Part shown: positions 858-17,541 of the stretch, in pieces
How positions within the stretch are numbered: position 1 is the first letter of the stretch
Layout of the letters: each line of letters begins with the position of its first letter
NCBI GenBank assembly: GCA_001303705.1
Contig: LJUI01000037.1
Span: forward strand, 1 to 18,774
DNA from: a candidate division TA06 bacterium SM23_40
Lineage (GTDB): Bacteria > LJUI01 > SM1-40
DNA length: 18,774 bases
Direction of reading: 5' to 3'
Notes under the pieces: model-generated
The model's database searches: none
What the model was told of the DNA's origin: nothing
Seen by the model: the letters and a program-made list of their open reading frames with translations, nothing else
Made by a program: the position numbers and the translations under genes

Positions 858-1355
858 CTACGGCGCCGAACGCGTCGCCGTGACCGACACCTCGAGGTCG
901 TAGTCGATATCGTCGCAGGTTAGCGGGACCGTTCCGGATTCCGCGATCAGCTCATCGCCCGAGAATGTTCCGGTGAGGTTCTGGCCAGCCTGGCCGCTGC
1001 ACGTGAGACCTGTAGCGCCCGTCTCGTCGTTGATCCACTCCTCGAAGAGACCCCTGATTGTCACGGCCCCACTCGCCTGGACTGTACCGGTAAAGCCACC
1101 TGCCGCGGCCCTGCAATCCGAGGGCTGGATAGTGAAGTCGCCTGAGAAGTTCTGACCCCGCTGGCCGGTGATGCGCAGAGTGCCCGGGCAGGTGCCGGAA
1201 CTGCCCCCTCCTGTGAAGGTGGTCTCGAAGCTGTAGGTGGCGTCGTAGGTCCCCTTCACGTCCGGTGGAGTCGATGGCCCGGTACCGTCATCTCCGCAGC
1301 CGACCAGCGTCATTCCTAAGATCACGCCCAGCGCAATCTTGGCCGACGGCGTCAT
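858..1355 (-). CDS. Small secreted lipoprotein, 165 aa
   Basis: The start ATG (1355-1353) is preceded by AGGAGG with a 5-nt gap, an excellent ribosome binding site. Residues 1-20 form a lipoprotein signal peptide with lipobox LVGC (Cys20), so the protein should be exported, lipid-modified and anchored in a membrane. The mature end begins CGDDGTGP, a Gly/Asp/Pro-rich linker common in lipoproteins of Gemmatimonadota (recollection, not a search). The rest is Gly/Thr/Ser-rich and predicted to be beta-rich, with two loosely similar units (residues about 55-100 and 110-160) each containing a GQ-N(F/L)(S/T)G motif and paired cysteines, consistent with a periplasmic disulfide-bonded beta fold. It lies 67 bp downstream of the TIR/SLOG-like gene on the same strand and could be read through from it. 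Function unknown. Confidence 0.75.
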   Translation of the reverse strand: MTPSAKIALGVILGMTLVGCGDDGTGPSTPPDVKGTYDATYSFETTFTGGGSSGTCPGTLRITGQRGQNFSGDFTIQPSDCRAAAGGFTGTVQASGAVTIRGLFEEWINDETGATGLTCSGQAGQNLTGTFSGDELIAESGTVPLTCDDIDYDLEVSVTATRSAP

Positions 1356-1422: not shown

Positions 1423-2295
1423 TCACACGAATGCGAGGAGTGTGCTCACTCCCTGTCCCTGGAAGTACCGCACCATCTCTTGTGTCCCCGAGCTCTTCCC
1501 ATCCCAGAAGAGGATGATGAGGTCCGACTTGATGCAGAACAGCACATCACGCGGGCTCGGCCCTTCTACGCCCCTGGGCAGCGATTCAACGGAAGCGTCG
1601 AGGAACTTGAGTCTCCCTTCTTTGACCATTTCGCGTAGCCCCGGCGCGCAATCGAATCGGTCGTAGCCGACGGCGGCGACCTGCTGATCGTGCTTGAGCA
1701 GGAAACGAATCGCGGCAAGGTCCACGGTTCCTTCGGATCCCACCAGCCAAACCGTCTGCTCTGAGAGATACGGTGTGAGAAGACCCTCGATTCTTCGGCC
1801 GGCTGCGACTTCATCTGCGCGCATTGACCCGGTCACCGCGATGGTCCGCTGCTCGGCCATCGTAGAGGACGGCAACGTGGCGACGCCGGTCGTCTTCAAC
1901 TCGTAGCGGGCCAGTGTGTCGCGTACGGCTTTTGAGAGCTTGTCCTTGAGATCACCCAGCCGCTCGGGCGAGTATTCCAGAACACGGTGCGACCGGAGAT
2001 CGAAGGGCAGCGAGTCGATGTTCTGCCCGATCAGGATCGTCGGCTTTCCCAGTGCCATCGCGTAACCGGTCTCCCACATGACGTTGGGGTTGTCTCCGGT
2101 GACGTCCGCGATGCAGAAAGTCGCCTCGGCGAGCCCGTGCATGATGTCATCGGTGATCCTGCCTGCGGCGTGGACATCCTTGAGCCAATAGCAGTCGAAG
2201 TCGGTGTCGGGAACGGCACTGGCCGCCACCTCGCTGACGGCCTGGAAGACCGGGTCAAAGGCTTCGGCGAAGGGCATGATGACAAAGCACTTCAT
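1423..2295 (-). CDS. TIR/deoxyribosyltransferase-like + SLOG-like two-domain protein
   Basis: A 290-aa cytosolic protein with two Rossmann-like halves. Residues 1-110 match the nucleoside 2-deoxyribosyltransferase/TIR-like fold: MKCFVIMPF at the first strand, FDPVFQAV helix, CIADVTGDNPNVMWETGY (61-78) with the probable catalytic Glu75, then ALGKPTILIGQ and PFDLRSHRVLEY. Enzymes of this superfamily cleave N-glycosidic bonds in nucleotides or NAD. Residues about 150-290 resemble a SLOG/LOG-type nucleotide-binding domain: VWLVGSEGTVDLAA (182-195), VAAVGYDRFD, and a closing DLIILFWDGKSSGTQEMV (258-275) with the Gly-Thr loop. In known defence systems such as Thoeris, SLOG domains sense a nucleotide signal and switch on a linked NAD-degrading enzyme; a similar job here is inference. 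A -10-like TATACT lies upstream at 2341-2346. The ribosome site is weak. It is an apparent single gene, without a recognisable partner. Confidence 0.75.
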   Translation of the reverse strand: MKCFVIMPFAEAFDPVFQAVSEVAASAVPDTDFDCYWLKDVHAAGRITDDIMHGLAEATFCIADVTGDNPNVMWETGYAMALGKPTILIGQNIDSLPFDLRSHRVLEYSPERLGDLKDKLSKAVRDTLARYELKTTGVATLPSSTMAEQRTIAVTGSMRADEVAAGRRIEGLLTPYLSEQTVWLVGSEGTVDLAAIRFLLKHDQQVAAVGYDRFDCAPGLREMVKEGRLKFLDASVESLPRGVEGPSPRDVLFCIKSDLIILFWDGKSSGTQEMVRYFQGQGVSTLLAFV

Positions 2296-2634: not shown

Positions 2635-2640
2635 TCATGT
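2569..2640. repeat. Short ATCATG-type repeat array, about 11-bp spacing
   Basis: Seven ATCA cores begin at 2569, 2581, 2592, 2601, 2612, 2623 and 2634. The steps are 12, 11, 9, 11, 11 and 11 bp, close to one DNA helical turn. The later copies extend to ATCATG(T), and three are preceded by GCT. The last copy contains the stop codon of the ClC gene read on the minus strand. This face-of-helix spacing suits cooperative protein binding, but a decayed simple repeat would look similar. Confidence 0.55.
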
Positions 2641-4689
2641 GGTGGGCCGGGGCACACCGCGGCGTAGATGGGAAAGCTCTTCATCCGGGCCCAACACCAG
2701 CATGATGTCACCTGGCTGGAAGACGTAGTCCGGCGTCGGGGCCGCGTTGATGCGGTCCTCGCCGGGCGCGGAAGTCTGTTTGATCATCAGGACGCTGACC
2801 CCGAAGTTGCGGCGGATGTCCAACTCGCCGATCGTCTTGCCGACGAAGCCCGCGGGGACGTCGATCTCGGCGACCACCGTGTGACGCTCGGTCGGCACCA
2901 GGTCGACCTTCCTCTCTCCGGTCACCGCTGACGCCACGCTGCCGGCCATGTCGCGCTTGAACACCTCGGTGTGGTAGCGCTCGATGACATCCTGCGGCCA
3001 GATCACACCCGCGAGGCGCCCGTTCTCGAGGACCGGCACCTCGCCGCGGTACGAGCTCAGAAAACGCATTACGTCGGCCAGCGAGCGGTCCGGGGTCACC
3101 GCCGGGAAGTCGGTTTCGGCCACGTCTTCTGCGATGACCAGCAGCTCGAAGCAGGCCGGGTCCCTCATCACCGGTCGTATATCGTCGGCGGTGATGACGC
3201 CTTCCAGACGGTCGTTCTCATCGACGACGAACAGGGTGCTGCCGGGATGATCGATGAACTTCGAGATGAGGGAATAGAGATCGGCATCTGGGCTAACGGT
3301 GACCACGTCGGTGCGCATCACCTCACGCACGGGCACGTGCTGGAGCACGTTCACCGCGCGGCCCCTTTGGATGTCGAGGCCGCGACGCACGAGCTTCATG
3401 GTGTAGATGGAGGCCCGCTGCACGCGGGTCGCCAGCAGCGTGCCGATGATGCAGCTGATCATCAGCGGCATGATGATCTTGTAGTCGCCCGTCATCTCGA
3501 AGATGATGAGGATGGCGGTGATCGGCGCGTGGGTGCCCGCGGCGACCACGGCGCCCATACCGACCAGTGCGTAGGCTCCCACGCCCGCCGTGCTGGTCGG
3601 CCAGAGGAGGTGGACTACGGTGCCGACGGCGCCGCCCAGCATGGCGCCGATGAACAGCGAGGGCGCGAAGATGCCGCCGGAGCCGCCGGATCCGATGGTG
3701 AGGGACACCGCGAGGATCTTGAGGACGACTAGAGCGGCCATGAACTGCCAGACGAGCCGACCGTGCAGCGCTTCGCCGATCGCCTCGTAACCGACGCCGA
3801 AGATCTGGGGCGCCCAGATGCCGATGACGCCGATGAGCGCGCCGCCGATCACGGTCTTCAGCGGAGGCGGCAACTTGATGCGGTCGAACAGGTCCTCGCA
3901 GCCGTAGAGGCTGCGGATGAAGGCGAGCGCCACGAGCCCGGCCAGGACTCCCAGGCCCGCGTAGGCGAAGAGTTCGGTCCAGTGGACCAGGCTGTACTCC
4001 GGGACCACGAAGGCCGGGAAGTCGCCCAGGAAATGGCGGCTCACGACGGTTGCGGCCACCGACGAGATGACGATCGGCGAGAACTGGGCGACGCCGAAGT
4101 CGCTGAGGATGATCTCCACGGCGAACAGCGCGCCGGCGACCGGCGCGTTGAAGGTCGCGGCGATCCCGGCGGCGGCGCCGCAGCCCACCAGCGTGCGCAG
4201 CCGCCGCCGATCGATCTTGAGCCACTGACCCAGCGCGGAGCCGAGCGCGGAGCCGATCTGCACGATCGGACCCTCACGGCCGACCGAGCCGCCGGAGCCG
4301 ATACAGATCCCGGAGGCGAACAGCTTGGCGATGACGACGCGCGGCCGGATGCGGCCGCCGCGCATCGCCACCGCCTCCATGACCTCGGGCACACCGTGCC
4401 CTTTGGCCTCGCGCGCGAACAAGTAGACGATGAGGCCGACGACGAGACCGCCGGCCGCCGGGGCCAGGATTTTCCACCAGAAAGGCAGGGCAGCGAGGTA
4501 GTCGAGCGTATAGGTGCCGCGCTGCCAGGCCAGCAACTGGATCAGCTGGATCAGCCGGCGGAAGGCGACGGCGGCGAGTCCACCCAGCACGCCGATCACC
4601 ACGGCCACCAGGACCATGTAGAGCCGCTCCGTCTCGCGGAGCCCGCGGTGCCAGGCTCTCAGGGTCGTGATCGCCGCCGTAATTCTCAT
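2635..4689 (-). CDS. ClC chloride channel/antiporter with CBS and RCK-C domains
   Basis: A 684-aa inner-membrane protein moving chloride (possibly in exchange for protons). Residues 20-435 are the ClC membrane core: chloride-site loop GSGGS (131-135), GREGP with gating Glu139, NAPVAGALF (181-189), GSGGSGGIFAP (333-343) and the helix-R Tyr429 in ASIYTMKL. Residues about 450-575 form a tandem CBS pair, a typical adenosine-nucleotide sensor. Residues about 590-675 match an RCK-C/TrkA-C ligand-binding domain (GFVGKTIGELDIR, YVFQPGDIMLVLGP). The start ATG has GGAG 5 nt upstream. Where E. coli ClC has Glu-Glu after the NAPLAG helix, this protein has Glu192-Ile193, so the internal proton glutamate seems missing, which may favour channel-like transport (inference). 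It is divergent from the HD-GYP regulator gene. Confidence 0.95.
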   Translation of the reverse strand: MRITAAITTLRAWHRGLRETERLYMVLVAVVIGVLGGLAAVAFRRLIQLIQLLAWQRGTYTLDYLAALPFWWKILAPAAGGLVVGLIVYLFAREAKGHGVPEVMEAVAMRGGRIRPRVVIAKLFASGICIGSGGSVGREGPIVQIGSALGSALGQWLKIDRRRLRTLVGCGAAAGIAATFNAPVAGALFAVEIILSDFGVAQFSPIVISSVAATVVSRHFLGDFPAFVVPEYSLVHWTELFAYAGLGVLAGLVALAFIRSLYGCEDLFDRIKLPPPLKTVIGGALIGVIGIWAPQIFGVGYEAIGEALHGRLVWQFMAALVVLKILAVSLTIGSGGSGGIFAPSLFIGAMLGGAVGTVVHLLWPTSTAGVGAYALVGMGAVVAAGTHAPITAILIIFEMTGDYKIIMPLMISCIIGTLLATRVQRASIYTMKLVRRGLDIQRGRAVNVLQHVPVREVMRTDVVTVSPDADLYSLISKFIDHPGSTLFVVDENDRLEGVITADDIRPVMRDPACFELLVIAEDVAETDFPAVTPDRSLADVMRFLSSYRGEVPVLENGRLAGVIWPQDVIERYHTEVFKRDMAGSVASAVTGERKVDLVPTERHTVVAEIDVPAGFVGKTIGELDIRRNFGVSVLMIKQTSAPGEDRINAAPTPDYVFQPGDIMLVLGPDEELSHLRRGVPRPTT

Positions 4690-5019
4690 GGTTGCTCCAT
4701 CCAGCCTCGGAAATGGGGCCCAGATCAGGCAGGCCAGCCGGTGGGAACGCCGGGCCGCCCACTGGGGTAGTGTTCGCTGCCGGACCTGCGAGCGCAGCCG
4801 CGCCGCAAGGTCCTGCCACCCCCCCTGGAAGCCCCACGGGGAGCCCCGTGCGAAGAAGAGTCGTTCCTTGGCTCGACCCGCCCAAACTTAGGCAAGCCCG
4901 GATTGCGGTGCTATGCCTTCGTGTATCTTGCTGGCGCCGCCGTAAGCTGTATGGTCGCTGGCGCGGCCGCCTGATCGAGGCGCCCCCCGCCGATTGTGAG
5001 ACAAGGGGAGGGTTCTGAG
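4690..5019. other. Divergent intergenic region, probable promoters
   Basis: This 330-bp space lies between the divergent ClC and HD-GYP regulator genes and must hold both promoters. On the plus strand two weak sigma70-like pairs can be picked: TTGCGG with TATCTT 15 nt later, and TTGCTG with TATGGT 16 nt later (about 4914-4956). A perfect 16-bp inverted repeat, CACGGGG-AG-CCCCGTG, lies at 4835-4850 and might be an operator or small hairpin. No gene is supported here. Confidence 0.35.
4835..4850. repeat. Perfect inverted repeat between divergent genes
   Basis: Arms CACGGGG and CCCCGTG are separated by AG. Its place in the divergent promoter region makes an operator possible; a chance palindrome in GC-rich DNA is equally possible. 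Confidence 0.35.
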
Positions 5020-6120
5020 ATGAAGGGTGCCGGGGAAGAGAAGCGACCGGCCAGCATTCTGATCGTTGATGACGAGGTCTCCGTTACCTCCCTCATCTCC
5101 AAGCAACTGAGGCGCGACGGGTTCGCCTGCCAGGAAGCGCTCTCGGCGGAGGAGGCGCTGGAGCACCTCGAGGGGAGCGACTTCGATGTGGTCGTCACCG
5201 ACATCAGGATGCCGCAGATGTCGGGGATCGACCTGCTGAAGATCGTGAAGCAGCGGGACCCCGAAGTCCAGGTCGTCATGATCACCGGCAACCCGAACGT
5301 CGATTTCGCCGTCGAGGCGATCCGCCTGCAGGCCGACGATTACCTGGTCAAGCCGTTCGAGCTCGGCCAGCTCAGTCACGCGGTGGCCCGGGCGCTGGAG
5401 CACCGCGAGCTGTTACAGGAGAACCGGCGCTACCGGGAGCGGTTGGAGATTCGCGTGGAAGAACAGTCGCAGGAGATCGAGCGGCTCTTCCTCGACGGGC
5501 TCTCCGCGCTCGCCGCGGCGATCGAGGCGCGTGACCGCTACACCGGCGGCCACGTGGACCGGGTCAGCCGCTACGCGTTGGCCACGGCCGACGCGATGGG
5601 GCTGGAGGATCAGAAGATGTGGGCCGTGTGGCTGGCCTCGATGTTCCATGACGTGGGCAAGCTGGCGATCCCCGACTCCATCCTCAACAAGCCGGGCCCG
5701 CTGACTGAGGAGGAGTACGCGGAGATGAAGCTGCACCCGGTGCTGGGGGCACAGATCGTGAAGCGGGCCTCGTTCCTCATCCCGGCGGCACTGGGCATCC
5801 TCCATCACCAGGAGCGTTGGGACGGCCGGGGCTACCCCTCGGGCCTCAGGGGCGACCAGATCTCCATCGAAGGCCGCATCCTCGCCGTGGCCGACGCCTT
5901 CGACGCCATGCTCACCGACCGTCCCTACCGACCGGCGCAGACCGAGGAGTACGCGGTGTCGGAGCTCGAGCGCTGCGCCGGTACCCAGTTCGATCCGGTG
6001 GTGGTGCGCGGCTTCCTGGAGGCCCGGGCCAATGGGTTCCCCGGCCCGTCGCCCCACGAGCAGTACCCGCTGCAGCGTGTGGCGGAGTGGTCGGGTAACG
6101 CGGGCAAGCGGGACTACTAA
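5020..6120 (+). CDS. Response regulator with HD-GYP phosphodiesterase output
   Basis: A 366-aa cytosolic two-component regulator. The start at 5020 follows GGGGAGG with about 8 nt spacing; an in-frame GTG at 4996 lies before that site and is less likely. Residues 12-125 are a receiver domain: acidic DDE (17-19), phospho-acceptor Asp61 in VVVTDIRMP, Thr89 and Lys111 in YLVKPF. A coiled-coil-like linker (about 126-155) leads to an HD-GYP domain (160-340) with FHDVGK (HD at 210-211), LHHQERWDGRGYPSGL (261-276, GYP intact), and ADAFDAMLTDRPYR. HD-GYP proteins hydrolyse cyclic di-GMP through a metal centre; all visible metal ligands are present, so it should be active and controlled by phosphorylation. 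No sensor kinase gene lies beside it, so the partner is encoded elsewhere. The residues after about 340 are a short unstructured tail. Confidence 0.95.
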   Translation: MKGAGEEKRPASILIVDDEVSVTSLISKQLRRDGFACQEALSAEEALEHLEGSDFDVVVTDIRMPQMSGIDLLKIVKQRDPEVQVVMITGNPNVDFAVEAIRLQADDYLVKPFELGQLSHAVARALEHRELLQENRRYRERLEIRVEEQSQEIERLFLDGLSALAAAIEARDRYTGGHVDRVSRYALATADAMGLEDQKMWAVWLASMFHDVGKLAIPDSILNKPGPLTEEEYAEMKLHPVLGAQIVKRASFLIPAALGILHHQERWDGRGYPSGLRGDQISIEGRILAVADAFDAMLTDRPYRPAQTEEYAVSELERCAGTQFDPVVVRGFLEARANGFPGPSPHEQYPLQRVAEWSGNAGKRDY

Positions 6121-6169: not shown

Positions 6170-6241
6170 GCCACCGTAGCTCAATGGTAGAGCACGTCAT
6201 TCGTAATGACGGGGTTGTCGGTTCGAGTCCGACCGGTGGCT
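6170..6241 (+). tRNA. tRNA-Thr (anticodon CGT)
   Basis: Folds as a full cloverleaf: acceptor GCCACCG/CGGTGGC, D arm GCTC...GAGC, anticodon stem CGTCA/TGACG with loop TTCGTAA (anticodon CGT at 6202-6204), T arm GTCGG-TTCGAGT-CCGAC. The discriminator base is T and no CCA is encoded. It is the first of four tandem tRNA genes. Confidence 0.96.
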
Positions 6242-6262
6242 CTTGGGGTTAGGTTCCCGTGT

Positions 6263-6335
6263 GCGGGCGTAGCTCAGTTGGCAGAGCGCAACCTTGCCAA
6301 GGTTGAGGTCGCCGGTTCGACCCCGGTCGCCCGCT
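6263..6335 (+). tRNA. tRNA-Gly (anticodon GCC)
   Basis: Acceptor GCGGGCG/CGCCCGC, D arm GCTCAGTTGGCAGAGC, anticodon stem CAACC/GGTTG with loop TTGCCAA (anticodon GCC at 6296-6298), T arm GCCGG-TTCGACC-CCGGT with one end pair G-T. No encoded CCA. It lies 21 nt after the Thr tRNA, so joint transcription is likely. Confidence 0.96.
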
Positions 6336-6433
6336 CTGCGGCGTATCCGAGGGATGCCCGGGGAGGAGGAAGCCAAGGGCGGGCTTACGGCCGGCCTGCG
6401 GTGTAAACTCTCCGGGCCTCTGACTATCGAAAG

Positions 6434-6507
6434 CGGGGAGTAGCTCAGCCCGGAAGAGCGCTGCGTTCGGGTCGCAGAGGCCGCGGGTTCAAATCCCGCC
6501 TCCCCGA
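6434..6507 (+). tRNA. tRNA-Pro (anticodon CGG)
   Basis: Acceptor CGGGGAG/CTCCCCG, D arm GCTCAGCCCGGAAGAGC, anticodon stem CTGCG/CGCAG with loop TTCGGGT (anticodon CGG at 6468-6470), T arm GCGGG-TTCAAAT-CCCGC, discriminator A, no encoded CCA. A 98-nt gap without a gene separates it from the Gly tRNA. Confidence 0.96.
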
Positions 6508-6529
6508 TTCCCGCTCGCTGGTTGTTACT

Positions 6530-6603
6530 CGGGACGTGGCGCAGCCCGGTAGCGCGCCTGAATGGGGTTCAGGAGGTCGCGGGTTCGAATCCCGCCGTCC
6601 CGA
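6530..6603 (+). tRNA. tRNA-Pro (anticodon GGG), likely integration target
   Basis: Acceptor CGGGACG/CGTCCCG, D arm GCGCAGCCCGGTAGCGC, anticodon stem CCTGA/TCAGG with loop ATGGGGT (anticodon GGG at 6564-6566, G37 as expected for Pro), T arm GCGGG-TTCGAAT-CCCGC, no encoded CCA. It is the last tRNA before the integrase gene, so its 3' half is the most likely attachment site of the island. I found no second copy of this 3' end further right in the window. Confidence 0.96.
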
Positions 6604-6690
6604 TTACGATAACCTGCCGTAGACAAAGTAGTTAGAGTATCCAGATCCTCGCTTGTAACCCGCCCTTCTGGTCCCGCAGTGTCAAGAACA

Positions 6691-6719
6691 GTGACAAAAG
6701 GCTCACTTTGGGCTATATT
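6691..6719 (+). promoter_or_regulatory. Sigma70-like promoter for the integrase gene
   Basis: A -35-like GTGACA (6691-6696) and a -10-like TATATT (6714-6719) are separated by exactly 17 nt. The pair lies 47 bp upstream of the integrase start codon, a sensible leader length. Confidence 0.5.
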
Positions 6720-6766
6720 CATGGGCAGACCCGCCTTTCCAGTCCCGCCGAGGAGGCAATGCCCAC

Positions 6767-8011
6767 GTGGCCCGCAGGAAGCCGCGAAACCGCATCTACT
6801 GGCGAAGTCAGGGCAGGGCGCGTCGTGCCTACGGTGACTTCCGCGACTACTCCGATGTGGGAGGGGGCCGTGAGGCTCTTATCGCGCCGGGAGAGGCTCG
6901 GGCAACGACCGATCCTGACGTGGCTCAGAAGCTCGTAGCGGACAGGGTTAAGGAGCTAGAGTCTCGACGACGGAACAAGACCCTCCTCGGCCTTGAGAGA
7001 CCCGCCCGGCTCGGGGAGTTCGCGCAACATCACCTGACCGAGAAAGCCAAGAGCGGGAATGTCAGCGAAGCGTGGTTGGCTCAGAGTCAGTACCAGTTGC
7101 AGGCTGCTCTCGAATTCCTCGGTGACCGCGATCTTACTTCCATCCGTGTCTACGATGTCCAGAGGTTCGCGAACCATCTGAGGCAACTTGGAAATGGTCG
7201 CGGCGGCAAGCTCAGTAGTGCAACCATCAGGCTGTACCTGAACTCCCTGTCCAACCTCTACACTCGCGCTGCCAGCGAGGGATGCGTGCCACCCGGATAC
7301 AATCCGGTGTCGGCGATCATGGACAAGCCGGTGGCGCGTCGGAGGGAGGCACGTTGGCTTGAGATTCACGAGGCTGCTCTGCTTCTTGAATCGGCGCGGA
7401 TCTATCGACCGCAGGCTGATGCCTTTCCGTTCATGTATCCTCTCCTCGCGACCTTCCTGCTCACAGGCGGACGCAAAGCCGAAGTCCTCGGCCTCGAAGT
7501 GGAGGACGTAAGCTTCGACCGTAGGACCGTGACGTTCCGGCCCAACAAATGGCGGGGATTGAAGACGAGCACCAGTCACCGGAGCGTACCATTGTGGCCT
7601 CAAGTCGAAGAGATCCTCAGGGAGTACGTGTTCGGCGGAGAGGCTCCCCTCGGCTCGCTGCTGTTCCCATCAGCGCGTGGTCGAGAGGATCTGATGATTA
7701 CCGACCTGCGGAAATCGCTGGATGCGATAGCTGCGAAGGCCGGTTGGAAGGCTGGTGAGATCAGGACAAAGATCTTTCGGCACACGTACTGCGCCACTCG
7801 CCTTCAGACCCTAGATCGTGGAGCACCCGTCAGCGAGTACACGGTCGCCAAGGAACTCGGACACGGTGGGCGGGCGATGGTCGAGCGGGTCTACGGTCAC
7901 TTGGGGCAGGTCAGGCACCGTGCCGAGGTGGTCGAGTACAGGGTAGAGCAACATCGGGATGTGTTGGGTGAACGGTTGACCGCTCTTCAGGCATCGGGGG
8001 CAACACGATAG
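6767..8011 (+). CDS. Tyrosine recombinase/integrase
   Basis: A 414-aa site-specific DNA recombinase that would insert and excise the island by cutting and rejoining DNA through a phosphotyrosine. The GTG start (6767) follows AGGAGG (6751-6756) with 10 nt spacing; an ATG at 6759 is in another frame. Residues about 85-190 are the N-terminal core-binding (SAM-like) domain. The catalytic domain follows, with Arg in LTGGRKAEVLGL, Lys in the NKWRGLKTSTSHRSVPL hairpin, HTYCATRL (FRHTYC, the H-x-x-R box), GHGGRAMVERVYGHL containing the second His and the nucleophile Tyr. All visible catalytic residues are present, so it should be functional. Its place directly after a tRNA gene fits a tRNA-targeting integrase. 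No excisionase is adjacent; the HTH protein at 16430 is a candidate. Confidence 0.95.
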   Translation: MARRKPRNRIYWRSQGRARRAYGDFRDYSDVGGGREALIAPGEARATTDPDVAQKLVADRVKELESRRRNKTLLGLERPARLGEFAQHHLTEKAKSGNVSEAWLAQSQYQLQAALEFLGDRDLTSIRVYDVQRFANHLRQLGNGRGGKLSSATIRLYLNSLSNLYTRAASEGCVPPGYNPVSAIMDKPVARRREARWLEIHEAALLLESARIYRPQADAFPFMYPLLATFLLTGGRKAEVLGLEVEDVSFDRRTVTFRPNKWRGLKTSTSHRSVPLWPQVEEILREYVFGGEAPLGSLLFPSARGREDLMITDLRKSLDAIAAKAGWKAGEIRTKIFRHTYCATRLQTLDRGAPVSEYTVAKELGHGGRAMVERVYGHLGQVRHRAEVVEYRVEQHRDVLGERLTALQASGATR

Positions 8012-8036
8012 ACGTGGTTTGGCCGACTTAGCACAT

Positions 8037-8080
8037 CCGATCTCCCGGCTGGCGGCACTCAAGCGCCAGCCAGAGATCGG
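8037..8080. terminator. Strong hairpin between convergent genes (likely bidirectional terminator)
   Basis: Outer arms CCGATCTC (8037-8044) and GAGATCGG (8073-8080) and inner arms GGCTGGCG (8047-8054) and CGCCAGCC (8064-8071) pair perfectly, with a 2/1-nt bulge and a 9-nt loop. It lies between the stop of the integrase gene and the stop of the convergent gene at 8121-8438. There is no T tract on either side, so it may be a factor-assisted terminator or an RNA-stabilising structure. Confidence 0.6.
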
Positions 8081-8120
8081 AGGCGGTCTCAGGGTAGCCC
8101 ATGCAGCCTTCCCCGCAACC

Positions 8121-8438
8121 CTACGTTAGAACTACTCGGTTCTCAGGACCGCTCACGCTTGAGCGGGGGGTCTGTTTGTCGTAGGCATATGCACCGTTGG
8201 GCAAGACGAATGCCTTCGCAACCTTGTCGGCCTCGGCTGACCCTAGCTCGTCGGCGGCCCAACGCCAAGTTTCACGAATGAGGGTATAGGTGCCTCGTTT
8301 CCCCTCGTAGCTTGAACCGTAGTTCGTATGAATGCCGTTGCGGTTCAGGTGCTCAGCTAACTCATCCCCCGACATGGTCATACCGTGGTGCCTCAGGAAG
8401 TCAGCGAGCTTCCACACGTAGAGCTTCTTGTTAGTCAT
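8121..8438 (-). CDS. Small conserved-looking hypothetical protein, 105 aa
   Basis: The start ATG is preceded by AGGAGG with a 4-nt gap, an excellent ribosome site, and the reading frame has gene-like codon use. The protein (MTNKKLYVWKLADFLRHHGM...) is soluble, with a helical N-terminal half containing MSGDELAEHLNRNGI, reminiscent of a helix-turn-helix or winged-helix fold, then GKRGTYTLIRETWRWAADEL and an AFVLPNGAYAYDK strand. I do not recognise a named family; the middle part feels like small proteins seen in other mobile elements, but that is impression only. It converges with the integrase gene, sharing the hairpin at 8037-8080, and diverges from hsdR. That position would suit a regulator of the restriction operon or of integration, which is inference. 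Confidence 0.75.
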   Translation of the reverse strand: MTNKKLYVWKLADFLRHHGMTMSGDELAEHLNRNGIHTNYGSSYEGKRGTYTLIRETWRWAADELGSAEADKVAKAFVLPNGAYAYDKQTPRSSVSGPENRVVLT

Positions 8439-8555
8439 CTTACCTCCTTGTTAGTCCGCTCTCCCAACACATAAGCGTCGTTTCTCTCTTATCCGGTCGC
8501 CGAACCTTAGCGTGCTCTCGGCCCAAGGGTGGGTGGCTTGACATCTCAGTGTCGA

Positions 8556-8585
8556 TTGCCCGTAGCTCAAGGGGCAACATATATT
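8556..8585 (+). promoter_or_regulatory. Candidate promoter for the hsd operon
   Basis: TTGCCC (8556-8561) and TATATT (8580-8585) are separated by 18 nt and lie about 65 bp before hsdR. A perfect TTGACA also occurs at 8538-8543 but has no good -10 at the right distance. Both are by eye only. Confidence 0.35.
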
Positions 8586-8651
8586 TGCGGTACTAGAGAA
8601 GCTGATGTCTCCCCCGCAGCCTAGCATCCCTACTCCTGCAAACGACACTCA

Positions 8652-11420
8652 GTGAAACCAGAAGACAGAGCCCGACAGGACATCGACCGCCAGTTGGCGG
8701 AGTGCGGTTGGCTCGTTCAGGACCACAGGTCCATGAACATCGGCGCGGGTCTGGGGGTGGCGGTTCGGGAGTTCCCGCTCGAAAAGGGATTCGCCGATTA
8801 CCTCCTCTACGTGGACGGGAAGGCTATCGGCGTCATCGAGGCCAAGCCTGCGGGCCACACGCTGACCGGCGTGGAGGAACAGTCAGCCCTCTACACGAGG
8901 AGCCTGCCGGACGGCATCCTCCTCCACGGCCTTCCGCTTCCCTTCGCTTATGAATCGACTGGAATCGAGACCCGGTTCACGAGTAGGCTCGACCCCGATC
9001 CCCGTAGCCGGGGAACGTTCGCCTTTCATCGGCCGGAGGAGTTGCTCCGTGTCGTCAGCCTCGACGGCCAGCTTCGTCAGAACCTAAGAAACCTGCCTCC
9101 ACTGAAGACCGAGCGTCTGTGGCCGGTTCAGGTCGAGGCGATACGGAATCTCGAAAGGTCTCTGGCTGAGAATCGACCGAGGGCACTCATCCAGATGGCT
9201 ACAGGTAGTGGAAAGACGTTTTGCGCCTGCACCTTCTCCTACAGGCTCATCAAGTTCGCCAAGGCCAAGCGGATCCTCTTCCTCGTGGATCGGAACAACC
9301 TCGGCAGGCAGGCTCTGAACGAATTTCAGCAGTACCACAGCCCGTACAGCCAGTACACGTTCACCGAGGAGTATCCGGTCCAGCGGCTTCGGAAGAATGT
9401 GATCGATCCGGCCAGTAAGGTCTGCATCACCACCATCCAGCGGCTCTACTCGATCCTGAAGGGCGAGGAGGAGTGGCCCGAAGAGAACGAGGAAGACTCC
9501 ATGTTCGAGGCTGAAGCGCCTCTTCATGTGGAGCCGATGCCTGTTGTCTACAATCCGAATGTTCCCATCGAGACGTTCGACTTCATCGTGGTCGATGAGT
9601 GCCATCGCTCAATTTACAACGTCTGGCGTCAGGTCCTCGACTACTTTGATGCCTTCATCATCGGCCTCACGGCAACTCCGACGAACCAGACCATCGGCTT
9701 CTTCCATGGAAACGTCGTGCAGGACTATTCCCACGAGAAGGCTGTCGCGGACGGAATCAACGTCGGGTATAACGTCTACCGTATCGAAACGGAGATCACG
9801 AAGGAGGGTGCAACGCTCAAGAAGGAACCCGGTCTACTGATCCCTCGCCGGGACAAGCGAACTCGTCAGATGAGGCTGGCCGAACTCGACGACGATTTGA
9901 CGTATACTGGCAGCCAGCTTGACCGCGATGTTACAAACCCGAGCCAGCTTCGACTAGTCATTCAGACGTTTCGGGATCGACTCTATAGCGAAATATTTCC
10001 CGGTCGTACTGAGGTTCCGAAGACGCTGGTGTTCGCAAAGAATGACAATCACGCCGAGGACATCGTCAAAGTGTTCCGGGAGGAGTTCGCTAGAGGAAAC
10101 GATTTCTGCCAAAAGATCACGTCCAAGACGACGGGCAAGAAGCCCGAGGATCTGCTGAATGAGTTCCGTAATTCCTTCAACCCGCGTGTCGCCGTGACGG
10201 TGGACATGATCGCCACCGGGACAGACGTGAAGCCCTTGGAGTGCCTGCTCTTCATGAGGAACATCGCCTCGGCATCGTACTTCGAGCAGATGAAAGGTCG
10301 CGGTACGCGGGTTATTAGCTCCGATGATCTGAGGCAGGTAACACCGGATACTGTACATAAGACGCACTTCGTGATCGTCGATGCGGTCGGGGTGTGCGAG
10401 AACGACAAGACGGCTTCCAAGCCACTGGACCGTAAGCCCTCGGTTCCGCTTCAGAAGCTGCTTCAGATGGTCGGTGAAGGCAGAGTGAGCGCAGAACTCG
10501 TATCGACCGTGGCAGCACGACTAGCGCGATTGCACCGGGAAACCACAGACGACCAGCGAGCAGAGATCGCGGCAGCCGCTAAGGGGAAATCCCTCGCCGA
10601 GATGACCAGCGACCTGCTCACGAGCCTTGATCCTGACGCCAGCGTCGAGCGGGCAGTCCAAAAGTTCAGGATACCTGAGGGGGAAGAACCCACGGATCAG
10701 CAGCTTCAGGAGGTCGAGCGGGAGAGCATGGCTGAGGCCCTGAGCCCGTTGTACGATGCAGGGCTTCGCGACAAGATCCTGACGATCAAAGCTTCTCTGG
10801 AACAGATCTATGATGAGATAACACAGGACAGGATTCGGAAAGTCGGGTTCGACTCACAGGCGAAAGATAAGGCCGAGTCACTCCTGAAGAACTTCCGGAC
10901 CTTCATCGAGGACAACAAGGACGAGATCGAGGCGATCCAGATCCTCTACAGCAAGCCTTACCGGGCGGGTCTGCGATACGGTCAAGTGAAGGAGCTTGCC
11001 GAGGCTTTGAAGCGGCCTCCCCTTTCCATCCGAGAGCCTGTCCTTCAGCTATGGCGAGCCTACGAGGCCGTCGAGCCCACGAAGGTGAAGGGCACCGCGA
11101 GCAGCTTGGTCGATCTCGTTTCAATCGTCAGGCACGCGATCTATCCTGATGAGCCGCTTGTCCCGGTCAGGAGTACTGTCGAGGAACGCTATCAGGAGTG
11201 GCTGATCGAGCAGGAAGCAGCGGGGGTGAACTTCACCCCGGAGCAGCAGCAGTGGCTCGACGCAATCAAGGACCACATCGCGAACAGTCTGACCATCGAA
11301 CAGGACCAGCTAGAGTACGCGCCGTTCACGCAACTTGGTGGCTTGGGGAAGGCGTACCGTCTCTTCGGTGATCGCCTACCGACACTACTCGGTGAGTTGA
11401 ACGGGAGGTTGGCAGCGTGA
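8652..11420 (+). CDS. hsdR: Type I restriction enzyme, R (endonuclease/translocase) subunit
   Basis: A 922-aa motor and nuclease subunit that pulls DNA through the HsdR2M2S complex and cuts it at a distance from unmodified recognition sites. Residues 1-90 form the PD-(D/E)xK nuclease: FADYLLYVDG (Asp49) and VIEAKPAG (Glu63, Lys65). The SF2 helicase follows: Walker A ATGSGKT (183-189), VVDECH (313-318), LTATPT (339-344), ATGTDV (521-526) and MKGRGTR (547-553). The C-terminal part from about 680 matches the EcoEI-type R C-terminal domain. The GTG start is assumed from ORF structure and the family's usual MxPExxARxxID beginning; no Shine-Dalgarno precedes it. Its stop overlaps the hsdS start by 4 nt (GTGA). 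All catalytic motifs are intact. Confidence 0.96.
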   Translation: MKPEDRARQDIDRQLAECGWLVQDHRSMNIGAGLGVAVREFPLEKGFADYLLYVDGKAIGVIEAKPAGHTLTGVEEQSALYTRSLPDGILLHGLPLPFAYESTGIETRFTSRLDPDPRSRGTFAFHRPEELLRVVSLDGQLRQNLRNLPPLKTERLWPVQVEAIRNLERSLAENRPRALIQMATGSGKTFCACTFSYRLIKFAKAKRILFLVDRNNLGRQALNEFQQYHSPYSQYTFTEEYPVQRLRKNVIDPASKVCITTIQRLYSILKGEEEWPEENEEDSMFEAEAPLHVEPMPVVYNPNVPIETFDFIVVDECHRSIYNVWRQVLDYFDAFIIGLTATPTNQTIGFFHGNVVQDYSHEKAVADGINVGYNVYRIETEITKEGATLKKEPGLLIPRRDKRTRQMRLAELDDDLTYTGSQLDRDVTNPSQLRLVIQTFRDRLYSEIFPGRTEVPKTLVFAKNDNHAEDIVKVFREEFARGNDFCQKITSKTTGKKPEDLLNEFRNSFNPRVAVTVDMIATGTDVKPLECLLFMRNIASASYFEQMKGRGTRVISSDDLRQVTPDTVHKTHFVIVDAVGVCENDKTASKPLDRKPSVPLQKLLQMVGEGRVSAELVSTVAARLARLHRETTDDQRAEIAAAAKGKSLAEMTSDLLTSLDPDASVERAVQKFRIPEGEEPTDQQLQEVERESMAEALSPLYDAGLRDKILTIKASLEQIYDEITQDRIRKVGFDSQAKDKAESLLKNFRTFIEDNKDEIEAIQILYSKPYRAGLRYGQVKELAEALKRPPLSIREPVLQLWRAYEAVEPTKVKGTASSLVDLVSIVRHAIYPDEPLVPVRSTVEERYQEWLIEQEAAGVNFTPEQQQWLDAIKDHIANSLTIEQDQLEYAPFTQLGGLGKAYRLFGDRLPTLLGELNGRLAA

Positions 11421-12961
11421 CGAGGGGTAACGATCTGCCCAGAGGCTGGGTAACTTCCACGCTCGGTGAGGTCTGCTCTCGACCACAATACGGCTGGACA
11501 ACCAAGGCTAACCCCTCAACTGGAACGGTTCGCCTACTGCGGACTACCGACATCACGCCGGGCTGGGTCGATTGGTCTTCTGTACCCTATTGTTCTGAGA
11601 ATCCGCCCGACATCTCAAAGTACCGGCTTCAAGAGAACGACATCGTGATCTCGCGGGCTGGTTCTGTTGGCGCGAGCTTTCTGTTGTCAGACGTACCAGA
11701 AGAGGCGGTCTTCGCTTCCTACCTCATCCGGTTCCAGCCGCTTGAGCCGATCAGCCCCAAGTTCATTGCGTACTTCCTACAGACTCCTGATTACTGGTCC
11801 GCGATTACCGAGCGGTCTTCTGGAATCGCCCTTCCCAACGTCAATGCGCGAAAGCTGGAAAGTATTCAGATACCATTAGCACCCAACGCCGAGCAACACC
11901 GCATCGTCGCCAAGATCGAGGAGCTATTCTCCGACCTCGACGCTGGCGTGGCTGCGTTGGGGCGGGCCAAAGCCAACCTCAAGCGATACCGTGCCGCCGT
12001 CCTCAAGGCCGCCGTGGAGGGCAAGCTGACCGAGGAGTGGCGCAAGGAGAATCCGCCGAGCGAGCCTGCTTCCGAGCTTCTGAAGCGTATCCTCGCTGAG
12101 CGTCGGAAGAAGTGGGAGGAGGAGCAACTCGGCAAGTACGAGGCGAACGGGAAGAAACCGCCGAAGAACTGGAAGGATACGTATAAGGAACCTCTCAGAC
12201 CTGATACGGAGAAGCTACCACCACTGCCGGATGGTTGGTGTTGGACCACGACTGATGCGCTGTTCACCTTTGTGACGAGCGGATCGAGGGGGTGGGCGAA
12301 GTACTACTCGGAGCTTGGCTCTCTCTTCCTTAGAGTAGGCAACCTCGACCGGTTATCGATCACGCTGGACTTGAGAGAGGTACAGCGGGTTACGCCTCCC
12401 AAGGGCGCCGAGGGACGGAGGACGAGGGTCCAAGAAGGCGATATCCTGATATCGATCACTGCTGATCTAGGGATGATTGCTCTAGTTCCCGACTACCTCG
12501 ATGAGTGCTTCATCAACCAACATGTCGCCTTGGCAAGGGCTGTGTCCTCGATTAGCCGTCCGTACGTGGCGTGGTTCCTCGCCAGTGAGTATGGGCAGCG
12601 CCAGTTCGGAAGGATGCAGCGCGGCGCTACCAAGAAAGGACTCGGTCTTGACGATATTCGAGGTGTGCAAGTCCCGTTGCCTCCTGTGAGAGAGCAAGAG
12701 GAGATTGCCGCAGCAATTGAATCACGTTTCTCAAACTGCGCCGCTGCTGAAGTGAATGTCTTGGTATCATCAGCCCGCGCACAACGTCTGCGCCAATCAA
12801 TCCTGAAGCGTGCCTTCGAGGGAAAGCTCGTCGAGCAAGACCCCAGCGATGAGCCCGCAAGTACCCTCCTCGAACGGATCAGGGGCGAACGTACGAAGTC
12901 AGGCGAGCCGAAGAAAGGCATCTTCCGGAAGGCAAAGAACAGTCAGCTGAAGTTGCTATGA
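11417..12961 (+). CDS. hsdS: Type I restriction-modification, S (specificity) subunit
   Basis: A 514-aa protein that reads the two halves of the bipartite DNA target for both methylation and restriction. Its layout is two target recognition domains each followed by a conserved helix: TRD1 residues about 5-155 (LPRGWVTSTLGEV... GIALPNVNARKLESIQIPL), the first coiled helix about 158-210 (RIVAKIEELFSDLDAG, VLKAAVEGKLTEEWR), TRD2 about 268-420 (LPDGWCWTTTDALF), and the second helix about 420-470 (LRQSILKRAFEGKLVEQ). Such internally repeated helices set the spacer length. A basic linker (about 215-265) separates the halves. GTG start overlaps the hsdR stop; its own TGA overlaps the hsdM ATG, so translation is probably coupled. 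The target sequence cannot be told from here. Confidence 0.95.
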   Translation: MTRGNDLPRGWVTSTLGEVCSRPQYGWTTKANPSTGTVRLLRTTDITPGWVDWSSVPYCSENPPDISKYRLQENDIVISRAGSVGASFLLSDVPEEAVFASYLIRFQPLEPISPKFIAYFLQTPDYWSAITERSSGIALPNVNARKLESIQIPLAPNAEQHRIVAKIEELFSDLDAGVAALGRAKANLKRYRAAVLKAAVEGKLTEEWRKENPPSEPASELLKRILAERRKKWEEEQLGKYEANGKKPPKNWKDTYKEPLRPDTEKLPPLPDGWCWTTTDALFTFVTSGSRGWAKYYSELGSLFLRVGNLDRLSITLDLREVQRVTPPKGAEGRRTRVQEGDILISITADLGMIALVPDYLDECFINQHVALARAVSSISRPYVAWFLASEYGQRQFGRMQRGATKKGLGLDDIRGVQVPLPPVREQEEIAAAIESRFSNCAAAEVNVLVSSARAQRLRQSILKRAFEGKLVEQDPSDEPASTLLERIRGERTKSGEPKKGIFRKAKNSQLKLL

Positions 12962-14445
12962 AGAACGACACCCAACAGATCGTCAATAAGGCTTGGAATT
13001 TTGCCCACGTCCTTCGGGACGACGGGCTCTCCTACATGGCCTACACGGAACAGATAACGTTCCTGCTCTTCCTGAAGATGGCAGATGAGCAGACGAAGCC
13101 TCCGTACAATAATCCGCCCATCGTTCCGCCAGAACTCGGCTGGCAGAGCCTCCTTAAGCTCGACGGTGATGAGCTAGAGATTCACTACCGGCATATCCTC
13201 GAAGAACTCGGGCGCAGAGGCGGGATGCTCGGCGAGATATTCAAGAAGGCTCGTCAGGAAATACAGAATCCCGCGACGCTGAAGCGGCTCATCGTAGACC
13301 TGATCGACGCTGAGCACTGGTCGTCGATGGAGGCCGATGTCAAGGGCGACATCTACGAAGGTCTGCTCGCCAAGAGCGCAGCGGAATCACCGAAAGGGGC
13401 AGGCCAGTACTTCACACCGCGAGAGCTGATTAAGGGGATCGTTGACGTGATGCAACCCAGTCCGGACGATACGATCTGCGACCCAGCTTGCGGAACCGGA
13501 GGCTTCCTTCTCGCCGCACACGACTACGTGGTGGGAGAACACGGTCGGACGTTGAATCCCGACCAGCAGAGGCACCTTCGCGAATGCTTCGTCGAGGGCA
13601 CGGACATCGTCCCGGCCACCGCCCGGCTCTGCATCATGAATCTGTACCTGCACGGCATCAATGCTGATCCGTGCCCGATCCGCTCGGGTGTAGACAGTCT
13701 CGCCAGCGACCCCGGTGACCGATACAGCATGATCCTCACCAATCCTCCGTTTGGGAAGAAGAGCAGCATCACCATCGTGAACGAGGAAGGCGAACTAGAG
13801 AAAGAAGATCAGGCATACGAGCGGCAGGATTTTTGGACGACGACGAAGAACAAACAACTCAACTTTCTTCAGCACGTCAAAACGCTGCTGCGGATCTACG
13901 GTCGTTGCGCCATCGTAGTACCCGACAATGTGCTTTTCGAGGGCGGAGCCGGTGAGGCAGTCCGAAGGAATCTCTTGAAGCAGTTCGATGTCCACACCCT
14001 GCTGCGTCTTCCCACGGGGATCTTCTATGCTCAGGGCGTCAAGGCGAACGTTCTCTTCTTCGATGCGAAGCCAGCGCAGGAGGCTCCGTGGACGAAGAAG
14101 CTCTGGATCTACGATCTCCGGACCAACATGCATTTCACGCTGAAAACGAAGCCGCTCAGACGCTCGGACCTCGATGAGTTCGTGGAGTGCTTCAAGCCGG
14201 GTCGGAGGCACGAGCGCGAGGAAACGTGGAGCGAGGATGATCCAGAGAGTCGCTGGCGAGTCTTCGAGTACGAGGAGCTAATCAAGCGAGACAAAGTGAA
14301 TCTGGACATTTTCTGGCTGCGGGACAGGAGCTTGGAGGACTCGGAAGACCTGCCCGAGCCTGATGTCCTTGCGCGGGAGATTGCGGATGATCTTCAGACT
14401 GCACTGGACCAGTTCACCGCCATCGTGGGTGAGCTAGGTGAGTAG
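12958..14445 (+). CDS. hsdM: Type I restriction-modification, M (adenine methyltransferase) subunit
   Basis: A 495-aa N6-adenine DNA methyltransferase that, with HsdS, protects the host's sites and is part of the restriction complex. The N-terminal helical bundle (1-120) is the HsdM N domain; GQYFTPREL (149-157) introduces the methylase fold, with S-adenosylmethionine motif I DPACGTGGF (175-183) and catalytic motif IV NPPFGKK (262-268). The C-terminal half contains the expected IVVPDNVLFEGGAGEAVRR and RLPTGIFYAQGVKANVLFF elements. The length is normal and no frame disruption is visible. It starts at an ATGA overlap with hsdS. The order R-S-M is not the commonest arrangement. The next gene to the right is convergent, so the operon ends here. 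Confidence 0.96.
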   Translation: MKNDTQQIVNKAWNFAHVLRDDGLSYMAYTEQITFLLFLKMADEQTKPPYNNPPIVPPELGWQSLLKLDGDELEIHYRHILEELGRRGGMLGEIFKKARQEIQNPATLKRLIVDLIDAEHWSSMEADVKGDIYEGLLAKSAAESPKGAGQYFTPRELIKGIVDVMQPSPDDTICDPACGTGGFLLAAHDYVVGEHGRTLNPDQQRHLRECFVEGTDIVPATARLCIMNLYLHGINADPCPIRSGVDSLASDPGDRYSMILTNPPFGKKSSITIVNEEGELEKEDQAYERQDFWTTTKNKQLNFLQHVKTLLRIYGRCAIVVPDNVLFEGGAGEAVRRNLLKQFDVHTLLRLPTGIFYAQGVKANVLFFDAKPAQEAPWTKKLWIYDLRTNMHFTLKTKPLRRSDLDEFVECFKPGRRHEREETWSEDDPESRWRVFEYEELIKRDKVNLDIFWLRDRSLEDSEDLPEPDVLAREIADDLQTALDQFTAIVGELGE

Positions 14446-14606
14446 AGAGCTTCTCTGTACTCGGAGGGAGGTATCCCCCGGCATCCATTGAGGGATAAGG
14501 CTCTCCTACGAGGAGCACAGAGTCTTCACAGCGCATTTCTGCCCCAGCCGAGGGTACGAGGTTGAGTTTCCGAAGGAGAACCCGAAATTGGGCTCTCAAC
14601 TGCGCC

Positions 14607-15215
14607 CTAGTCCCACGGCGTGCACTGGTGAGCGTCGCTACGTAACCTCAGTTCTGCGAGGTCCGTCCAGACAACCTCCTCTATCAGACCGTTCTCAAGG
14701 ACAACGATAAGCTCTGGCTGAGCAAAGCCGCACTCGAACAGCATGACCGTCTCTTCCTTCCGGTTGCGTCGTAGGCGCTGCACGATCAACGGGTGAAGGA
14801 AGCTCTCAGGTCGCCGCTCTGTTGGGTAGTAGTAGAGCGGATACGAGACATGGATGTCACCACCTGCCACGTACTCTTCCTCTCCAATCTTGAACACACC
14901 TTGGGGGCGGCGGTAGACGAAGTATCGGGAACCCGCCTGCTCTTCCCAAATTGTATCCGGCGGACCAACGACGATTCCTGTGAGTGCCGCGGGGTCTCCC
15001 GGCATGAACCTCTCAAGCTTGTCCTTGTGAACCAGTTGGAGTACCCGTGTAGCCGGGTCAGCAAAAACCGACAGCCACCGGTCATGCCGCTCGAAGGCAA
15101 CGATGGGGCCTTCTCCGGGTAACCGCTCTCGTTGCTCAGTACAGCCCGTAAGCGACTTGGCAACAGCCACGACGAGCAGGAGTACCGCTGGCATCCTTAC
15201 TCTGATCACAGGCAA
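14607..15215 (-). CDS. Small lipoprotein, unknown function, 202 aa
   Basis: A TTG start (15215) is favoured because AGGAGGA lies 5-6 nt upstream; an in-frame GTG (15209) and an ATG (15194) are possible. Residues 1-25 form a lipoprotein signal peptide: basic start, hydrophobic core AVLLLVVAVAK, lipobox LTGC with Cys25. The mature part is mixed alpha/beta with Trp, Tyr and charged residues (GEEEYVAGGDIHVSYPLYYY, RRPESFLHPLIVQRLRRN, a paired late Cys in ECGF and HQCTPWD) and no known motif that I recognise. It should be an envelope-anchored protein. It converges with hsdM across 161 bp and is the only envelope gene in the island, so it may be cargo or host DNA; function unknown. Confidence 0.6.
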   Translation of the reverse strand: MPVIRVRMPAVLLLVVAVAKSLTGCTEQRERLPGEGPIVAFERHDRWLSVFADPATRVLQLVHKDKLERFMPGDPAALTGIVVGPPDTIWEEQAGSRYFVYRRPQGVFKIGEEEYVAGGDIHVSYPLYYYPTERRPESFLHPLIVQRLRRNRKEETVMLFECGFAQPELIVVLENGLIEEVVWTDLAELRLRSDAHQCTPWD

Positions 15216-16089
15216 TCAGTTCCTCCTGAGAGACGCTGCGAGGCAAGTTACCTCTTGCTTGCAATCAGATGTGGCACAGGCATCTCGGTCCTCTGTCGAA
15301 AAAAATCCGCTGGGCAGAGAATACCGATTTTAGAGTTACACCAGTGCCGAGACTCCCAACAGTTCGATCACGACAGAGTGGCGTGCCAAACCACTCCCGT
15401 CCTCATCGTGATGCTGACCTGCTTGCAGGACTGGGTAGCGTACCTGCTTGGGTCACCAACCCAAGGACCATGAACCGAGAGGACCACCCCCTCCTCCGCA
15501 GTCTGGATGAACGCGGAGATGCCTTGTGAGGGGGAATTGGGAATCGGATCATCGTGCTCTCCTCTGACCTCCCATCGTCGGCTCGATGAGGATGCCAGAT
15601 GCTCGTCGCCAACATTTCCAACACAGGCCTGAGCGGATTCTCTCCACGCGATGAGGGTCTTTCCCATGGATCTTCCATCGCAATCGAGCAGCTCCTGGGG
15701 GACGAGTTGTCGTTCAAGACCGTGCGTCCACTGTGTCGCCCGCTCGACTTCAGGATGTGGGGTGTAACGACTGTAGGTAGAGGACGGGCTGCCATCGGAG
15801 CCAGAGAAGACGGAGAAGGACCAACTCGAAAGTCGGTCTCGTCGTGGATGGCAGCCCGCGTTCTTAGTGTTCCGATCACGACCTCATCTCCGTCACCAAA
15901 GCTCCGATTGAAGTGTAGGCTATCAACCTCGGTCCAGATCGTCAAGCTTTGGGATCAGAGCGGATACCTATTCCTCCAGTCTCTGCGGTCTCCGAAATTC
16001 CAACAGACGCCTCTTTCGGACACACGGAGATGCTGTACCTACGACATATTGGGCGAGATGAGACGCCTGTTTCTGTCTTTGAAGGATAA

Positions 16090-16140
16090 GGAGGAATCGT
16101 CGGGCTGAGAACCTGCCGGAGGAATCGGCCTGTCGGGCTG
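16090..16140 (+). repeat. Direct repeat GGAGGAATCG...TCGGGCTG
   Basis: GGAGGAATCG-TCGGGCTG (16090-16107) recurs as GGAGGAATCG-GCCTG-TCGGGCTG (16118-16140), the second copy having a 5-nt insert. The copies start 28 bp apart, just before the start-less peptide. It could be a local duplication that destroyed a gene start. Confidence 0.6.
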
Positions 16141-16258
16141 TGCTCTGCCAGATGACTTCGAGATTCAGGCCGCTCGACTGGCAGCCGAGTGGGGATTCAC
16201 CGGAATCGGTGCCGATCCCGATTACTTCTTCCGGGTTGGTGCAGGTAGACTCTGAGTG
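16109..16258 (+). pseudogene. Start-less gene-like fragment
   Basis: In this frame, after an in-frame TGA at 16106-16108, the sequence reads EPAGGIGLSGCALPDDFEIQ and continues through ARLAAEWGFTGIGADPDYFF to RVGAGRL and a TGA. The composition (acidic helix, then a Gly-Asp-Tyr-Phe-Phe end) looks like the C-terminal part of a genuine small protein, unlike the neighbouring frames. No ATG, GTG or TTG occurs in frame after the upstream stop. It is either a truncated pseudogene or a product that starts at a rare codon such as CTG at 16130 or 16145. Not recognised. Confidence 0.35.
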
Positions 16259-16429
16259 GCCTGTCCCGTGTCGGTGCGCCACAGGGAATCGCTATAACTG
16301 AACGCTCCGAAGTGCTCCCTTCTGTTGCCAAGCCAGACTCACCCCGATTCAACTGAGGATTCTTCAGACCCGTCGTCGTTACATCGGTGCAGGAGGGCAC
16401 ACCGAGGTTGATGCAGGCAAAGGGCAGGT

Positions 16430-16798: not shown

Positions 16799-16870
16799 GG
16801 GACCTCTCAAGACAGGTGGCAAGTGGTAATCCTGAGGCAACCAAACGTCCCGCTGATTGGAGAGACAGCG

Positions 16871-17413: not shown

Positions 17414-17469
17414 ACAGTCTGTCCGCTCGCCGGTAGGCTCCGTGACTCGTAGTTCGCGGAGTGCGACAA

Positions 17470-17494: not shown

Positions 17495-17541
17495 AACATG
17501 AATGACGCCGACTCCCGCCGCTACTGAAAAGGATGTGCGGT

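Follow-up and report, generated by a model that had tools for sequence, protein, structure and literature searches.

Among the described systems closest to the locus studied here, Thoeris ThsA is a SIR2-SLOG protein whose SLOG domain binds 3'cADPR and controls the fused NADase, the switch being thrown by cADPR isomers (PMC11204291). The SLOG domains of the STALD group were predicted to be nucleotide sensors for associated effectors (PMC7272460). In conflict systems, DrHyd domains are viewed as effectors with NADase activity or as cyclases, and TIR, DrHyd and SLOG are placed in a single clade (PMC9503650). Finally, Retron-Eco1, the effector of which is NDT-like, provides defence by NAD+ hydrolysis (PMC12405507).

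The stretch of DNA analysed here (the window, 18,774 bases) is a whole contig of a MAG of 2.88 Mb in 189 contigs that is 89.8% complete. On its minus strand an open reading frame with an ATG start and a stop codon at 1423-1425 encodes a protein of 290 amino acids, which joins a DrHyd-type half to a SLOG-type half (Table 1). The length, motifs and coordinates given for this frame in the original prediction were all exact upon rechecking: IMPF was found at residues 6-9 and CIADVTGDNPNVMWETGYAMALGKP at residues 61-85 with the Glu75 codon at 2071-2073, and the two glycine loops, GSEGT and WDGKSSGT, at residues 186-190 and 264-271. The gene is present as a single copy in its own genome, at the completeness given above, and E. 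coli genomes contained no nucleotide match to it. An origin of the two halves by recent internal duplication was rejected, the score of their global alignment being reached by 160 of 300 shuffles. A joint alignment of both halves was discarded. In it, SLOG rows were misaligned onto the DrHyd half. The halves were folded separately, and the models described below are those of the two single domains.

Table 1. Features of the window, with the residues of the fusion protein where these apply
Feature	Position	Strand	Basis or remark
Predicted 165-aa protein, lipoprotein-like start	858-1355		Beside fusion gene
DrHyd-SLOG fusion gene	1423..2295	(-)	ORF and full-length relatives P0002 (51% identity) and L233 (42%)
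Predicted N-terminal DrHyd / TIR-like domain, residues 1-134	1894..2295	(-)	PF05014, PADLOC TIR effector, AlphaFold2 and fold matches
IMPF loop after strand 1, residues 6-9	2269..2280	(-)	Pro8 in 113/128 and Met7 in 94/128 relatives
NPNVMWE motif, residues 69-75 (Glu75 at 2071-2073)	2071..2091	(-)	Conservation and DNPH1 alignment
Linker, residues 135-145	1861..1893	(-)	Between separately modelled domains; poorly conserved in alignment A10
Predicted C-terminal SLOG domain, residues 146-290	1426..1860	(-)	AlphaFold2, solved fold matches, YAcAr relatives
GSEGTVD loop, residues 186-192	1720..1740	(-)	First Gly and last Asp invariant in SLOG alignment
Arg-Asp, residues 249-250 (R104 of domain)	1546..1551	(-)	Conserved; Arg invariant in SLOG alignment
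WDGKSSGT signature loop, residues 264-271	1483..1506	(-)	W, D, G, S, G invariant, T nearly invariant (27 SLOG relatives)
ClC channel	2635-4689		Beside fusion gene
HD-GYP-type response regulator	4996-6120		
tRNA Thr, Gly, Pro, Pro cluster, then tyrosine recombinase and type I R-M (R, S, M), HTH and FtsH-M41-like genes	6170-18774		

Scanned alone, the N-terminal half matched PF05014 (nucleoside 2-deoxyribosyltransferase) over residues 41-95 with an E value of 5e-5 and 23.8 bits, which is under the curated gathering score of 28.8 bits; the same family was matched by 33 of the 42 members of the N-half alignment (E up to 0.01). Further profile matches were phrog_3634 (E 8.6e-21) and the PADLOC TIR effector PDLC00733 (E 9.2e-12). 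The latter was the only match labelled TIR, and no TIR family appeared among the Pfam hits up to E 1. The AlphaFold2 model, built from the 42 sequences, reached a pLDDT of 92.5 and has the Rossmannoid fold of the NDT/DNPH1 type. Its best Foldseek match among solved structures was the NDT 9emx_A (E 1.4e-5), while comparison with DNPH1 gave a Z score of 15.0 and an rmsd of 2.3 A over 119 residues, followed by MilB (Z 14.7) and the TIR domains of SPARTA (Z 14.4) and SfSTING (Z 14.1). DrHyd and TIR are thus not separable by the modelled fold alone; the sequence profile favours DrHyd, and we attribute residues 1-134 to a DrHyd, TIR-like domain.

A glutamate in the loop or helix after strand 3 is expected of the DrHyd family and is represented here by Glu75. 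In a profile alignment this residue coincided with the Glu of VGYELG in DNPH1, and the catalytic Asp of DNPH1 was aligned to Ile51, which adjoins Asp50. Over 128 DrHyd domains, Glu75 is kept in 126, Asp99 in 124, Asn71 in 123 and Val72 in all. Glu75 had been put forward in the original prediction as the probable catalytic residue, and its conservation agrees with that assignment.

Related DrHyd-type domains are widespread in bacteria; they were found in 15 of 191 other genomes of a wide sample, in 78 plasmid records and in 58 records from Streptococcus, Staphylococcus and Klebsiella phages. None of the plasmid and phage matches reached 80% protein coverage, and those listed lie in the N-terminal half or begin from it. 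In several proteins the DrHyd relative is tailed onto another N-terminal region. One sampled genome (L013) showed neighbouring open reading frames at 884-1357 and 1318-2001, each of which matched a DrHyd-type domain. The DrHyd/TIR-like proteins in phage records H42-H80 (Streptococcus, Staphylococcus and Enterococcus phages) are annotated as hypothetical; they may correspond to the 'distinct TIR' that has been mentioned for phages of Firmicutes (PMC9503650).

The C-terminal half had no direct match in a Pfam scan, and scans of genome contigs and viral contigs with the single sequence found nothing. Its SLOG relatives were fetched indirectly from viral contigs and genomes by searching with four alignments (A1-A4). 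Their rows 2-4 were invented to steer the peptide patterns searched and were used nowhere else; a tblastn comparison with the genuine window sequence confirmed each of the hits. In the resulting alignment of 27 members, 24 matched PF10686, YAcAr ('YspA, cpYpsA-related SLOG family'), the window domain itself lying below detection, and a profile built from the alignment matched DprA with E 2.5e-5. Every invariant residue of the alignment is found in the window domain, which has in common with its relatives a glycine loop ending in Asp, an invariant Arg and WDGxSxGT. Weak matches of this half also included DXP reductoisomerase-like and further unrelated proteins, which we dismissed as chance; the one exception was L025, a genuine SLOG. 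The AlphaFold2 model (pLDDT 94.1) was matched among solved structures by Moco carrier protein (Z 13.5), DprA (12.8), ShosA (12.4) and YpsA (12.4), and lower down by LOG (11.4), PpnN (9.6) and ThsA (8.4 and 7.5). We therefore attribute residues 146-290, by model and alignment, to a YspA/YAcAr-type SLOG domain. Fold searches of each half, which the original prediction had asked for, together with the profile and alignment searches bore out both of its domain assignments: the N-terminal half led to DNPH1, MilB, NDT and TIR domains and the C-terminal half to SLOG proteins.

The LOG motif PGGxGTxxE is replaced in the window by WDGKSSGTQEM, which has no PGG, and none of five SLOG members has a Glu at GT+3. 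Since all five lack the catalytic Glu of GTxxE, the SLOG half probably does not act as a LOG-type hydrolase; it is likelier to bind a ligand than to catalyse that reaction. With respect to the ligand pocket of STALD SLOG domains (Ser, Phe, Arg and Glu in ThsA), compared by motif only, a Ser after strand 1 and an invariant Arg are present and the Glu at GT+3 is absent.

The fusion of DrHyd to SLOG is real, conserved and rare. Three full-length examples were found, namely the window protein, P0002 on Phycisphaerales contig JANYKD010000467, which aligns over its whole length, and L233, from a genome that shares its phylum with a Blastocatellia MAG. The DrHyd halves of these proteins grouped as one clade with support of 100/100, and their SLOG halves as one clade (100/90) together with a remnant from Blastocatellia and a kinase fusion. 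Between the window protein and P0002 the DrHyd halves are 65% and the SLOG halves 41% identical; judged by these values, the SLOG half is the faster-evolving one. Glu75, Asn71 and Asp99 are all kept in these two proteins. L233 reads NPNVMWVAGYA where the window reads NPNVMWETGYA and PFNL where it reads PFDL, so that Val stands for Glu75 and Asn for the nearly invariant Asp99. As both residues are replaced, this copy is probably inactive. The catalytic Glu predicted for the family is thus retained almost throughout the 128 relatives and lost in one of the three full-length fusions. The Blastocatellia remnant (L102, contig JAHFUG010000237) has a SLOG half with 62% identity; it looks decayed because the DrHyd remnant before it is short and out of frame and the copy carries an internal duplication. 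This decayed SLOG copy (L102:1-744) directly precedes a type IIG restriction-methylase gene.

The kinase fusion is encoded at L234:9698-11278 on the minus strand in a planctomycete genome, where a Ser/Thr kinase (Pkinase, E 1.1e-38) is followed by a SLOG of the fusion's subfamily (36% identity); next to this gene, in divergent orientation, lies one for an ECF sigma factor. The presence of the same subfamily on a Ser/Thr kinase points to an interchangeable module, probably a sensor, and a single SLOG clade that spans DrHyd and kinase fusions suggests that one SLOG type has exchanged its outputs, which a sensor would be expected to do. We infer from these sequences a sensing module with several outputs, and the sensor-plus-effector layout that the original prediction proposed for the single protein is supported by the kinase. 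A lone and more distant SLOG was found in L235. Its kinship is unsure, since in the C-half tree a long branch sets it apart from the clade; its neighbours we take, by names read from the sequences rather than from scans, to be CHAT-like, effector-associated-domain-like and WD40 NTPase genes.

Taken together, the folds of both halves, the conservation of Glu75 and of the fusion itself, and the kinase joined to the same SLOG subfamily are consistent with a SLOG-gated NAD+ or nucleotide hydrolase, a reading to which we give an even chance. The C-terminal SLOG domain would bind a nucleotide-like ligand and control the N-terminal DrHyd/TIR-like domain on the same chain. By way of Glu75 the latter would cleave the N-glycosidic bond of NAD+, most likely, or of a (deoxy)nucleotide, and the cleavage would slow or kill the cell or make a signal, presumably in biological conflict, in a layout like that of ThsA with DrHyd replacing SIR2. 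Against this reading stand the loss of Glu75 and Asp99 in L233, the position of the DNPH1 catalytic Asp at Ile51, beside Asp50, and the rarity of the full-length protein with its three copies.

The genomic neighbourhood speaks against it as well. Neither the genes near the fusion in the window (ClC channel, HD-GYP regulator, lipoprotein-like protein) nor the transport and sugar enzyme genes around P0002 (L103) are defence genes. The region 6170-18774 resembles an integrative element at tRNA-Pro, for which no flanking repeats were found before the contig end. Membership of the fusion gene in this type I R-M island was rejected as unlikely, because its place is upstream of both the tRNA cluster and the integrase, with two unrelated genes in between. 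Imperfect short tandem repeats, rich in ATCATG and with a period of 11-12, occupy positions 2565-2640 in the stretch that separates the fusion gene from the end of the ClC gene, and an imperfect direct repeat of 33 bases occurs at 18280-18312 and 18531-18563 (82% identical, 251 bases apart).

Such housekeeping or unrelated neighbours in both genomes would suit a metabolic protein, in which the DrHyd domain is a DNPH1/MilB-like nucleotide N-hydrolase or a deoxyribosyltransferase and the SLOG domain binds ordinary metabolites or regulates by them, with no role in immunity. The solved structures closest by fold, DNPH1, MilB and NDT, point the same way. TIR domains, however, fit nearly as well (Z 14.1-14.4 compared to 15.0), the aligned position holds no counterpart to the auxiliary Asp of DNPH1, and the nearest profile matches are phage and defence families. 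The patchy spread over phyla and the decayed L102 copy are also unlike a core enzyme, and we consider this explanation unlikely.

The original prediction had seen no gene for a partner signal maker nearby. This was upheld and could be extended to the genome, which at about 90% completeness contained no match to TIR_2 or ThsB_TIR (PF13676, PF08937); the genomes of relatives have up to 28 TIR_2 matches. As no such signal maker was found, a Thoeris-like two-gene pathway is unsupported in this genome. The same result would fit a protein that makes and reads its own signal, the DrHyd domain producing an ADP-ribose-type molecule for the SLOG domain of its own or a neighbouring subunit, which would make a TIR partner unnecessary. 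Some DrHyd members are ADP-ribosyl cyclases, and cADPR isomers can be read by SLOG domains (PMC9503650, PMC11204291). This proposal is purely inferential, no downstream effector is visible besides the protein itself, and we hold it to be improbable.

The fusion gene of L233 lies in a one-strand cluster (L233:9376-19821, minus strand) with genes for an NB-ARC/TPR protein, a TIR plus cyclase-like domain protein, a TPR protein, Hsp70 and AAA proteins. This cluster possibly constitutes a separate conflict system, in which the TIR protein could be the enzyme. The neighbourhoods that the original prediction proposed to survey for defence genes are divided: in the window and in L103 they consist of housekeeping or unrelated genes, and the TIR/STAND/Hsp70/AAA cluster of L233 and the type IIG restriction enzyme beside L102 are of the anticipated kind. 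That both halves serve as sensors or scaffolds with vestigial catalysis and a separate enzyme as output, as the L233 protein without Glu75 and Asp99 beside its TIR-cyclase, NB-ARC/TPR, Hsp70 and AAA ATPase genes might suggest, is very improbable, given that Glu75, Asn71 and Asp99 are kept in the window protein and P0002 and that such partner genes are absent near the window gene.

The gated hydrolase that we prefer can be taken one step further, doubtful as that step is, to an immune or stress switch in one gene. Its DrHyd domain would make or destroy a nucleotide and the YspA-like SLOG on the same chain would read one, with no separate TIR or CD-NTase maker; the same SLOG type would also control planctomycete kinases, as a module shared by outputs. 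Phages and bacteria commonly carry SLOG domains of the YAcAr type, for which the cited literature establishes no ligand, and a natural fusion of such a domain to an enzyme with readable output offers a direct assay for the nucleotide that turns NAD+ or nucleotide cleavage on. Success of this assay would also reveal the window protein as a ThsA-like effector assembled from different parts, without a TIR partner. The combination looks new, while each of the two nucleotide-handling domains is well known; an earlier mention of it is possible in the NAR 2015 TIR-DrHyd-SLOG classification.

Compared with known proteins, the window SLOG shares with the YAcAr (PF10686) proteins of phages and bacteria the motifs named above, but it is below PF10686 detection, has a longer mid-part and is fused to DrHyd, whereas its YAcAr relatives mostly stand alone. 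From the kinase of L234, which carries the same SLOG subfamily, it differs by the output domain, there a protein kinase, and by the ECF sigma factor gene adjoining the latter. The N-terminal half resembles the nucleotide N-hydrolases DNPH1 and MilB in fold (Z 14.7-15.0) and in the aligned Glu; unlike them, it has the DNPH1 Asp off the aligned position and an additional SLOG domain, at an identity of about 15-22%. With the DrHyd/NDT-like effectors (PF05014, retron NDT, PDLC00733) it has in common the IMPF ... NPNVxxE ... PFDL core and the fold, but its partner is a SLOG domain, and neither a reverse transcriptase nor a CD-NTase was seen in the window. Finally, like Thoeris ThsA, the protein places a putative NAD-cleaving domain N-terminally and a SLOG domain C-terminally on one chain, and the SLOG model matches that of ThsA (Z 8.4 and 7.5). 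It has DrHyd in place of SIR2 and not the TM-macro architecture, its SLOG scores higher against Moco carrier protein, DprA and YpsA than against ThsA, and a ThsB TIR gene is absent from the window and was not found in the genome. While not a Thoeris system, the window protein is a structural parallel of ThsA.
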